The notes beneath the pieces are model-generated. The model saw only the letters and a list, made by a program, of their open reading frames with translations. It had not been told where the DNA came from and did not search any database. The position numbers and the translations under genes were made by a program. A DNA stretch of 64,000 nucleotides. Origin: Rhodospirillaceae bacterium SYSU D60007 (GTDB lineage Bacteria > Pseudomonadota > Alphaproteobacteria > Reyranellales > Reyranellaceae). Location: positions 1-64,000 of the forward strand of contig QOCQ01000009.1 of NCBI GenBank assembly GCA_003574685.1, written 5' to 3'. Shown piece after piece: positions 49,036-55,785 of the stretch; positions within the stretch are counted from its first letter, which is position 1; every line of letters begins with the position of its first letter.

Positions 49036-49115
49036 ACAAATTCTCTCCGGCATGAAGTCCGGGACTTCCAACCCTGCATTCCCGGACATCTGGTGTCGTG
49101 ACACGACGGCACCTG

Positions 49116-49156
49116 GCGGGCGGCGCATCCACGGCGCCGCCCGCTTTTCTCTTTCT
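49116..49156 (+). terminator. Intrinsic terminator of recA
   Basis: A perfect 11-bp GC stem (gcgggcggcgc with gcgccgcccgc) with a seven-base loop is followed directly by ttttctcttt. It lies just before the end of the convergent argD gene and reads for the plus strand. Confidence 0.85.
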
Positions 49157-49159
49157 GCC

Positions 49160-50359
49160 TTATGCCGCCCTGGGCTGCGCGCCCACCTGGTGCAGTGCCT
49201 GACGCAGAAGGCCGATCATCTGGTCGATCTCGGCCGCGCTGACCGTCAGCGCGGGCATGAAGCGCAGCAGGTTGGGACGCGGCGCGTTGAGCAGCAGGCC
49301 AACCGGCTGCAACAGGCGTGCCGCCTCGACGATCCGCCCACCATCCGGTGTGGCGAGCACCAGTGCGCGCAGCAGGCCAAGGCCGCGTTCGCCCGGCAGA
49401 CCGAACTCCGCGGCCAGCCCGGCCAGGCGCTGTGCAAGGTGATCGCCGCTGCTACGCACCTGCTCAAGGAAACCGGGGGCCAGCAGCACCTGCATCACGG
49501 CGACGCCGACGGCGGCCATCAGCGGGTTGCCGTTGAAAGTGCCGCCCTGGTCGCCGTGCTCGAAGCAGCAAACTTCCTCGCGCGCGAGCTGCGCGGCCAG
49601 CGGCACGCCCCCGCCAATGCCCTTGCCCAGCGTCATGATGTCGGGCTCGACGCCATAGTGCTGATACGCGAACAGCGTTCCGCAGCGCCCCATGCCGGTC
49701 TGGATCTCGTCGAAGATCAGCAGCAATCCCTTGCGCTGCGTGAGCTCGCGAAGCGCGCACATGAATTCCACAGTCGCAGGCACGACGCCCGATTCGCCCT
49801 GCACCGGCTCCAGCATCACGGCGACCGTCTCGCTGTCGATCAGTGCCTCGACCGACGCGATGTCGTTGAGCGCAGCCTTCGCGAAACCCGGAACCTTGGG
49901 CTCGAACAGCGTGTCCCAGCCCGGCTTGCCAGAAGCCGACATGGTGGCAAGCGTGCGGCCGTGAAAGCCGCCGTCGAAGGTGATGATGCGGTAAGCGCCG
50001 TTCTTGTGACGCGCGCCCCATTTGCGCGCCAGCTTGATCGCGCCTTCATTGGCCTCCGCGCCGCTGTTGCAGAAGAACACGCGGTCGAAGCAGCTATGCC
50101 GCGTCAGCAGGTTGGCGAGCTGCAGGGCGGGCTCGTTGTAAAAGGCAGGGCTGGGCGTGATCAGCTTGGCGGCTTGTTCGGCCAGCGCCCGCGCGATTTC
50201 CGGCGGGCAGTGGCCCAGCGTGTTCACGGCCCAGCCCTGGACGAAGTCGAGATAGCGCTTGCCGCGATGATCAATCAGCCAGCTTCTCTCGCCGCGCACG
50301 AAGACGGCGTCGGGCCGGGCGGTGATGTCCATCAGGCTGTGCGTCGAAAGCGGGCTCAT
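49160..50359 (-). CDS. argD: Acetylornithine aminotransferase (class III PLP-dependent)
   Basis: A 399-residue class III aminotransferase. [20 protein letters not shown] binds the PLP phosphate side, [10 protein letters not shown] carries the PLP-pairing Asp (D217), and the Schiff-base Lys is in TLGKGIGGG (K246). Length and motifs fit ArgD, which makes N-acetylornithine from the semialdehyde; succinylornithine and succinyl-DAP activity also occur in this family. ATG at 50359 follows GAGAGGA. An Arg-rich leader peptide and a terminator lie just upstream, supporting an arginine-biosynthetic role. The frame extends far upstream but overlaps those elements and is not coding-like. Monocistronic, convergent with recA. 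Confidence 0.88.
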
Positions 50360-50396
50360 GGCATGTCCTCTCCGGAGAAGGCGTGCCGTGGCCTGC

Positions 50397-50430
50397 AAAA
50401 CAAAAAAAGACCACGGTAACGCCCGTGGCC
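50397..50430 (-). terminator. Attenuator-type intrinsic terminator in the argD leader
   Basis: On the minus strand ggccacgg-gcgtta-ccgtggtc forms an 8-bp stem (one G-U pair) with a six-base loop, followed directly by tttttttgtttt. It lies about 38 bases before the argD start and about 31 bases after the leader-peptide stop. An intrinsic terminator here would stop argD transcription unless an alternative RNA fold forms, as expected for attenuation. The CCACGG sequence recurs about 30 bases downstream, giving a possible competing pair. Confidence 0.8.
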
Positions 50431-50460
50431 TCTTGCGGTTTGCAACGATGGCAGGATCGG

Positions 50461-50550
50461 TCAGCGGATCCGATGCCCATGCGCACGCCCACGCGGCCCC
50501 GGGAGAGGGTGCATGTGGCGTCGGCGTCGAAGCGTTGCGGTCCTGATCAT
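50461..50550 (-). CDS. Arginine-rich leader peptide of argD (putative attenuator peptide)
   Basis: A 29-residue open frame starting ATG at 50550 and ending TGA at 50463. It has nine Arg codons, four of them consecutive (RRRR at residues 8-11), then R20, R22, R27 and R29. Four His codons are also present. GAGAAGAG lies about ten bases upstream. A ggatc/gatcc stem overlaps the stop region, and the intrinsic terminator follows. In the usual attenuation scheme, ribosome stalling at Arg codons when charged tRNA-Arg is low would prevent the terminator and allow argD expression. In GC-rich DNA Arg codons are common, so the evidence is the combination of position, terminator and gene function. Confidence 0.7.
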
Positions 50551-50585
50551 CGCGGCGGCACTCTTCTCGTAACGCAGGCGGGGTG

Positions 50586-52943
50586 TCAACCGGATTCGGC
50601 CGCGCTGGTGTCCTCGACGATCGATTCCACCGCGTAGCCATAGCGCTTGACGTTGTGCAGCCGGTCGAAGAACCGGTTCAGCCAGATCTGTGCCGGCAGC
50701 AGCGGTCCCGGTGGCGCGGGATGTGTGGCCGCCCAGCGCAGCGCGCGTACCAGCGGAATACCCTGATTCTCGCCGGCGCTGGACAGCGGCGCCAGATGCC
50801 GAAGCGCAAGATAGGTGAGCGCGCTGGGCAGCACGTCGATCTGCACCGAGGGATCATCCGAGCGTGCGCAGTTTTCCGCCGGCGATGTCACCATGTGCTC
50901 GCGGCAGACCAACGGTCGCTCCTCGTAGATCGAGCAGCTTCCGCCTTCGAGAAGCGGGCAGGGTATCTTGAGGCCGAACCAGGCCGCGGGGAGATCGCCG
51001 TCTTTCCACGCGCCCTGTGCGAGACCCTGCTCGAATTCGGCAGCGCGATCCCACCCGGCGATGCGCCGCTCCGCCTCGGCGAAACGCGCGCGGACCTCGC
51101 TGCGGCGGGGTTCCGGCATGTCCTCGACCAGCGTCGCAATGCGGCGGGCTTCCAGCGAAGAAACGATCAGCAGCTCGTGACAGCAGGCCGTGCAGCCCGC
51201 GCGGCACGAGATCGGCTTGCCCTTCGCGGCGCTCGCGGCGATGACGTCCTGCACCATGGCGTTGGCGAAGGCGCCGAACGTCGGCAGCATGTCCGCCGCC
51301 GACACCATGCCCGGCGGAATCGCGACCTCGACCTGGCTTGCGGCATCGGGGCGGCTGTCGTCCCGATGCGCACCGCGGCCACCCAGGGGCACGAGCGCGG
51401 CGATTTCGGGCACCCGGCCGCCCCGGGCTTCGGCGGCCGCCTGGGCCTCCCGCAGACGCGTCGCGAAGCGCTCCAGCCAGAGCGCTGCGGGCAGCTCCGC
51501 CGACGTCTCGGGATGGGCGGCAACCCAGCTCAGCATGCGGATCATGTCGGTGCGCGCGCGGCGTGGCCCGTCATCCGCCGACAGATGGTCCAGCGCCGTT
51601 GCCAGCCGGGCGGACGGCACACGCTTCACCCGTGCCAGCTCGTCATCGAGCGCGAAGCAGAATTTCGGGTCCGACGTGACGAGGTATTCGCGGCAGATCA
51701 GCGGCCGGTCGTGATAGATTGAGCAGCTCTCGTCCTCGAGGAACGGGCACGCCAGCTTCAGCCTCATGTAGTCGATCGCCAGCCGGGGATCGCCCCGGCC
51801 CTCGGCGAGCAGGGTGTCGAGTTCGCCCAGCCGCTCCCACGCCGACAGCCGTTGCTCGGCGGCGGCGAAGCGCTTGCGGATTGTGCTGCGCCGGGGTTCG
51901 GGCATGCCATCGACCAGCGCCGCCAGGCGGCGGGCTTCGATGGCGCTGACGGGAATGATCTGGCGGCAGCACGCGCCGCATCCTGCTCTGCAGGCGATGG
52001 CATCGCCGATCGCCTCGGCCTGCGCTGTCACGGTTCGTGCAGCCTCATCGGCCAGCCTCTGCAGGACCGGCAGCAAGGCCTCGGCACGCACCTTGCCAGA
52101 GGGCAGGCGGACGCCGGCAACAACGCTGCCGTCCTGCCCTGGGCTGGCGGCCGTTGCTGGCGGCGACGGCTGTGCCGCCGCCTGCTGGGCCGGCGGGCGT
52201 GCCATGCGGCCGAGGAAATCCTGCACCCATTGCGTGCCCGGTCGCAGGGGCAGCGTGTCGGGATGGCGGTCGGCCCATGCGAGCGCCACCGACAGGCTGA
52301 CCGCCGCAGGGTACTCGCCGCTTTCGCCACCGGAGAACCGCAGCAGCGTCGAGAGCTTGGGGACGGGCACGACGTTGATGCCGCCTTCATGCGGACTCGC
52401 GCACCGCGTCGGGGGTGACGTCACGAGGTACTCGCGGCAGGCCAGCGGGCGATCCGGGTGAATGGAGCAGCTCTCGTCCTCCAGGAAGGGGCAGGCGATT
52501 GCGAGCCTGAAATAGGCCTGATCGAAGACCTGCCGGGCCTCGACTCCCATTTCCCCGATCCGCATGGCCGCATCGTGCAGGCCCGCGTCCCTCAGTCGCT
52601 GGCCCGCCTCGGCGAAACGGGCCTTGATCGCGCTGCGCCGCGGCTCGGGCATCTGCTCGACCAGTTCCTGAATGAAATACGCCTCCGGTACCGAGATCGG
52701 CACGGCCTGGCGGCAGCAGGCACCGCAGCCGGCCTTGCACGACACGGTCTTGCCGGCACCGGCCAGCTCCTGTTCGGAGGCCGAGACAACTGCGTTCACG
52801 AGACCCTGCAAGGCCGGCAGCACCGCCTGTTGCTTCACCGGGGCGGTCGGTGCCGTGATGCGGGCCTGGATGACGAGCCCGCCGACGCTCATCCTGAGAT
52901 TGCCGGTCGCCATCTCGGGCGGGGCCGTCCCGGCAGGGCTCAT
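50586..52943 (-). CDS. Triplicated YkgJ family (CxxxCxxCC) cysteine-cluster protein
   Basis: A 785-residue protein made of three tandem YkgJ-like units. Each has a CxxxCxxCC cluster and a later set of single Cys. Unit 1 has C69, C73, C76, C77 with C151, C159, C169, C181. Unit 2 has C318, C322, C325, C326 with C399, C407, C417, C429. Unit 3 has C580, C584, C587, C588 with C662, C670, C680, C692. Shared blocks are MPEPRRS and [11 protein letters not shown]. Most YkgJ proteins hold one unit and are predicted to bind zinc or an Fe-S cluster; function is unknown. ATG at 52943 follows GGAGAT. No signal peptide. It is divergent from alaS. Confidence 0.88.
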
Positions 52944-53128
52944 GCTCGATCTCCAGCGGCTGATTCCGGGTTGTGCAACAGGCCGTCCCTGTCGGGCGTT
53001 TCCCGGTGGCAGGGGTATACACCTGATCGGCAAAGGCTGCCATTCGCCGGCAGCGGCGCCGGCCGCTGTGTGGACACCGCACCGGCTGGCAGGGTAAGAA
53101 CCCCGGTTTCCCACAGGATCGGCGGCAA

Positions 53129-55785
<2,657 letters not shown>

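Follow-up and report, generated by a model that had tools for sequence, protein, structure and literature searches.

Proteobacteria control several amino acid biosynthesis operons by attenuators. Those of his, trp, leu, thr, ilv and phe all have a short leader frame rich in codons for the amino acid produced, a terminator before the gene, and a competing antiterminator, with the position of the ribosome deciding between the two structures. To our knowledge, textbooks do not count arginine biosynthesis among the pathways with leader-peptide attenuation. In the case of trpL/rnTrpL of Sinorhizobium meliloti, the attenuator mRNA is leaderless and starts at the leader AUG (PMC7298713, PMC10117765); this system is concerned with Trp and trpE, and an action of the RNA in trans has been demonstrated. 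The leader orf34 of Salmonella speF is described to sense arginine by a run of adjacent Arg codons in its short frame (PMC6386406); it controls polyamine synthesis via Rho and RNase G and does not act on an arginine-synthesis gene through an intrinsic terminator. A further ribosome-mediated attenuator was recently proposed in Rhodobacterales: uORFC-8-2, the cysS leader (PMC8632094), which has cysteine codons, precedes a tRNA-synthetase gene and is unrelated in sequence to the leader described here.

In the window, i.e. the whole stretch of 64,000 nucleotides of contig QOCQ01000009.1 from Rhodospirillaceae bacterium SYSU D60007, an element of this general kind precedes argD (Table 1). As judged from sequence and modelling, this element very likely regulates argD according to the arginine supply, by ribosome-mediated transcription attenuation with charged Arg-tRNA as the signal. 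It shares the architecture of the classical attenuators but differs from them in the amino acid and the gene, in its apparently leaderless mRNA, and in the lack of an evident 1:2 protector stem in the species of the window. With the leaderless trpL mRNA it would share the start at the leader AUG, although its sequence is a different one. An arginine attenuator had already been suggested in a first-pass annotation of this DNA, all numerical details of which (the frame, its nine Arg codons, RRRR, the hairpin, the T7 tract and the argD start) are correct, and the reading is now supported by a conserved frame and terminator, by an antiterminator that co-varies with the terminator, and by the short transcript documented for the homologous leader of Burkholderia.

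Table 1. Features of the argD leader locus in the window, and the argC-upstream leaders of two congeners
Feature	Position	Strand	Remarks
Promoter -35 box TTGACA	50584..50589	minus	from sequence; overlaps the TGA (50588-50586) ending the upstream YkgJ-like frame
Weak -10 region GAAGAG/AAGAGT	50560..50566	minus	9 nt upstream of leader ATG
Leader frame, 29 codons + TGA	50461..50550	minus	apparently leaderless; ATG at 50550, 39 nt downstream of first base of TTGACA; 9 Arg among the 29 codons; stop TGA 50463-50461; start, RRRR block and length same in three congeners
Control codons CGA CGC CGA CGC (Arg 8-11)	50518..50529	minus	invariant within genus
Putative antiterminator strand CCCGGGGCC	50495..50503	minus	codons 16-19; 8/9 pairing with terminator 5' arm
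5-bp stem GGATC/GATCC spanning the stop codon	50471-50467 with 50458-50454	minus	putative inner antiterminator arm
GGCCACGGG, putative shared competitor strand	50422..50430	minus	terminator 5' arm and loop start
Intrinsic terminator stem-loop	50405..50434	minus	8-bp core, then TTTTTTTG TTTT; T7 at 50408-50402
argD ribosome-binding site GGAGAGG	50373-50367	minus	
argD, acetylornithine transaminase, NF002985/PRK03715 type	49160..50359	minus	689 bits vs cut-off 568; start ATG at 50359, downstream of the T7
Locus L188, with Arg leader upstream of argC	G001:C23:314016-314984	minus	congener
Locus L189, with Arg leader upstream of argC	G003:C51:45122-46090	plus	congener

The frame of argD is open for 94 codons further upstream (49160-50641, minus), across the terminator and the leader, and automatic annotation could fuse the leader into argD and thereby hide it. 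Between argD and alaS, a long frame (50586-53231, minus) contains repeated YkgJ-like CxxCC cysteine segments, three copies by eye, and on the other side a strong 12-bp terminator (49115-49145, plus) lies between the convergent recA and argD and probably belongs to recA.

The promoter lies close to the leader frame: 55 of 64 leaders have a TTGAC box 35-39 nt upstream of their ATG, and among the 51 with a good -35 the gap between the end of the -10 hexamer and the ATG is always 6-10 nt. As Shine-Dalgarno-like motifs are nearly absent (1/64 leaders) and the -10 is this close, the leader mRNA looks leaderless, and transcription in the window is expected to start no more than about 3 nt from the AUG.

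The first-pass annotation had cautioned that the peptide alone would not convince, which is borne out by dinucleotide shuffles of the window's argD upstream region: 270 of 3000 contain an ATG frame with RRR, whereas only 4 of 3000 give ATG, RRR, stop and a terminator within 80 nt. The folding energy of that region is unremarkable (MFE z-score -1.3), and the case for a leader element is one of sequence conservation, not of folding energy. Such conservation in relatives had been named as the first check, and frame and terminator are indeed kept. The order ATG-...-RRRR-...-stop-terminator-argD is present in all four genomes of the genus, with the leader peptides MIRTATIRRRRIMHPVPGLRGRALLHRDP, MIRTATIRRRRDMHPHPGPHERARRHRDS and MIRTITIRRRRSMQPLPGLRERASLHRDP in the three congeners and a terminator and argD after each. 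For a wider comparison, 171 upstream regions of NF002985/PRK03715-type argD were collected from named genomes and from two samples, one covering the phylum and one the order Burkholderiales, the genus labels of the sampled groups (Burkholderia, Polynucleobacter and Bradyrhizobium sets) being inferred from clustering with named loci. The strict pattern is present in 58 of these regions and in none on the reverse strand, and shuffled controls yield a mean of about 0.15 per 171 (20 sets with 0-1 each, three of them with one). The 58 carriers belong to two bacterial classes and include the own genus, Bradyrhizobium, Burkholderia, Cupriavidus, Ralstonia, Oxalobacteraceae and others.

A further test of the frame took its ATGs from the promoter, regardless of Arg content: all those that follow a TTGAC box at a distance of 35-39 nt were considered (n=66). 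RRR occurs in frames 0, 1 and 2 of these promoter-defined ATGs in 41, 1 and 5 cases, the in-frame count being a lower limit because further Cupriavidus frames carry RRxxR. Judging from these counts, the Arg-rich frame with its terminator before argD is not a product of chance. In a synonymous-site test with three larger sets, the synonymous fractions of frame 0 were not clearly higher, and the peptide is unconserved beyond the Arg block, which is usual for attenuators and adds no proof of translation. The leader element is absent from many relatives, namely Alcaligenaceae, Zoogloea-type genera and Polynucleobacter-like genomes, and the automatic leader calls L026, L040, L075, L138 and L180 look false.

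In the genus, CCCGGGGCC lies just past the Arg block and can pair at 8/9 positions with GGCCACGGG, and a long inner arm closes with the stem at the stop codon. This short stem had been noted in the first-pass annotation; it is present, and it is best read as belonging to the inner arm of the antiterminator and not as an element of its own. Among the four congeneric genomes one of its base pairs is changed on both sides, and CCCGGGGCC is unchanged except for C/U at the last base, with pairing retained. The antiterminator is predicted to be mutually exclusive with the terminator in the window, which is backed by co-variation in the family, where GGGUGCC against GGCAACCC is an example of the pairing. 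The ribosome was modelled with the 3' arm of the terminator not yet transcribed and, for the stall, with the ribosome at the last Arg of the block. The predicted sequestration of the terminator 5' arm across 64 leaders has means of 0.73 for the stalled state, 0.43 without a ribosome, and 0.39 at the stop, where the model treats everything upstream of the ribosome as unavailable. The modelled stall value exceeds the stop value by more than 0.2 in 46 of the 64 leaders and the reverse holds in 1, and the predicted difference between the two states is 0.34 for real and 0.13 for shuffled spacers. For the window, the model gives 0.64 (stall), 0.19 (stop) and 0.67 (ribosome-free); as the ribosome-free RNA would form the antiterminator as readily as the stalled RNA, the model gives no sign, for this species, of the classical protector stem by which termination is restored in untranslated RNA. 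Since CCCGGGGCC is located 32-40 nt upstream of the stop codon, a terminating ribosome would disrupt the inner arm and would not cover the outer helix.

The terminator 5' arm GGCCACGG is identical in many betaproteobacteria, and other lineages have GGCCGCACCC (Bradyrhizobium), GGGTCACAGGC or AAGCCGCGCC, with leaders that vary to match. A swap test compared own with exchanged pairs in a 34 x 34 matrix of duplex energies between leader and terminator arm. Relative to the expectation from row and column means, own pairs gain 2.59 kcal (s.d. of permutations 0.42, 0/20,000), and the effect persists when the pairs are grouped into ten lineages. With composition-preserving shuffles the value is -0.31 +/- 0.34, control segments from the promoter side, the N-terminal part and the post-terminator region are about zero (-0.34, 0.32 and 0.02), and the window's own score is neutral (0.0). 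The matrix shows an antiterminator that co-varies with the terminator, although related rows are not independent.

The frame, the Arg block, the promoter spacing, the terminator and the co-varying antiterminator are apparent from the compared sequences. Translation of the leader, stalling at uncharged Arg-tRNA, a dependence on arginine and readthrough upon starvation as the sign of the response can be expected from a mechanism of the following kind. Transcription would begin at or beside the leader AUG, and a ribosome would load onto the leaderless 5' end. With ample arginine, the ribosome would pass RRRR, reach the stop codon and occupy or disrupt the antiterminator arm, upon which the GGCCACGG...CCGTGG terminator would form and RNA polymerase would be released before argD. 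With scarce arginine, the ribosome would stall at codons 8-11, and the free CCCGGGGCC together with the stop-codon stem would pair with GGCCACGGG, resulting in transcription of argD.

In Burkholderia, this type of leader has been catalogued under another name. Within the family to which the Burkholderia-type genomes belong, three argD leaders (L098, L099 and L101) match RF02884 (BcKCsr7) with 164, 143 and 93 bits (E 6e-36, 8e-31 and 2e-18), end to end from the -10 through the terminator and with the leader frame included. The window scores 15 bits, below the gathering threshold of 59, and at that threshold Rfam finds nothing in the window, nor in 16 loci from outside Burkholderia. Rfam files RF02884 as an sRNA to which no function is assigned; going by the matches of the three leaders, it represents the leader of argD in genomes of the Burkholderia type. 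According to a review (PMC10987360), Bc_KC_sr7, nc5U30 and RIT34 are one transcript of B. cenocepacia J2315, 147 nt long and covered by dRNA-seq and Cappable-seq data, and Sass et al. attribute short 5'UTR transcripts of this bacterium to processing or attenuation (PMC5688073); the passages on BcKCsr7 in these two papers draw no connection to arginine. A length of 147 nt would, if the 3' end is at the terminator, place the RNA start about 4 nt upstream of the leader AUG.

ArgR (PF02863) has no match in the window's genome and in 35 others, with or without the leader (36 in total); in a control search, it was found in 8 of 14 named reference genomes. The NF002985/PRK03715-type argD occurs in only 5 of 76 genomes of the window's order, and in the ArgD tree the genus forms a clade amid beta- and alphaproteobacterial sequences. 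The leader label changes 11 times on this tree versus 24 times for shuffled labels, with L010 being labelled as leader-bearing despite a frame without an Arg run. Because the argD type is rare in the order and the genus is nested among these sequences, a joint transfer of argD and its leader is likely. In a sister-genus draft genome (85% complete, 7% contamination), a Bradyrhizobium-like argD with terminator is found at a contig edge (L092, G059:C196:107-1276), which is either contamination or transfer. The window's genome has a second, different argD without such a leader, next to a gene that we take to be argF from the usual alphaproteobacterial gene order, and no Arg frame with terminator was found at this second argD (argD-argF), argG, argJ or carA. 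In two congeners, an argC paralogue has its own Arg leader with RRRRR (MLRNQNLCDRRRRRCTQ...) followed by a terminator. This leader begins about 37 nt after a TTGACG box, and its GGGCUGCG is complementary to CGCAGCCC of the terminator; the window's genome does not have this copy of argC.

Four other explanations of the locus were considered. A same-strand frame ends 36 nt before the leader and Arg codons are common in GC-rich DNA, and the hairpin might thus be the ordinary end-of-gene terminator of the YkgJ-like gene, with the Arg frame as a by-product of composition. This is very improbable and already contradicted, as leader and terminator remain linked to argD even where the gene upstream is a different one, both among congeners and across beta- and alphaproteobacteria, a promoter sits between the upstream stop and the leader, and the Arg runs are frame-specific and accompanied by leader-terminator co-variation. 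Still less credible, to the point of being negligible, is an N-terminal extension of ArgD: an open frame up to 50641 (493 aa) does exist, but the family match begins at the Met at 50359, translation of the extension would have to run across the terminator, and relatives do not preserve it, their open frames having 422, 465 and 443 aa.

A little more weight, though still small, can be given to two further explanations. RF02884 is filed as an sRNA, and its expression changes with stress; the attenuated trp leader RNA of Sinorhizobium is also active in trans (PMC7298713), and the argD leader RNA might chiefly be a trans-acting small RNA with an incidental frame. What makes this improbable is that every lineage retains it immediately upstream of argD despite sequence divergence, and that neither the RRR frame bias nor the pairing with its own terminator would be expected for external targets. 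Poly-Arg slows ribosomes, and the fungal arginine attenuator peptide is an Arg-linked leader that works by another route. Together with Salmonella speF orf34 (PMC6386406), such cases suggest that translation of the leader might be sensed by other means than uncharged Arg-tRNA, i.e. by arrest through a polybasic or Arg-bound nascent peptide or by Rho-dependent or translational control. There is equally little likelihood for this, as only the Arg block is conserved while its position in the frame and the peptide context vary, a canonical terminator and a competing antiterminator accompany it, and arrest by excess arginine would drive a biosynthetic gene in the wrong direction.

With attenuation through charged Arg-tRNA as the preferred reading, the argD leader adds a new amino acid to the known ribosome-mediated attenuators. 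A literature search that scarcely covered subscription journals found no earlier leader-peptide attenuator of bacterial arginine biosynthesis, and prior reports are possible. It is a tentative and rather unlikely extension that the leaderless Arg attenuator may be the main arginine sensor in many alpha- and betaproteobacteria without ArgR, moving between the classes with one argD subfamily and being re-used before argC, and that the terminated RNA (BcKCsr7 in Burkholderia) may also act in trans. The co-variation of leader and terminator provides a family for the study of attenuation on leaderless mRNA, and through the argD leader an orphan Rfam sRNA from work on stress and infection in Burkholderia can be reinterpreted. 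For bacteria that have no ArgR, the argD leader offers a testable answer to how arginine may be sensed.
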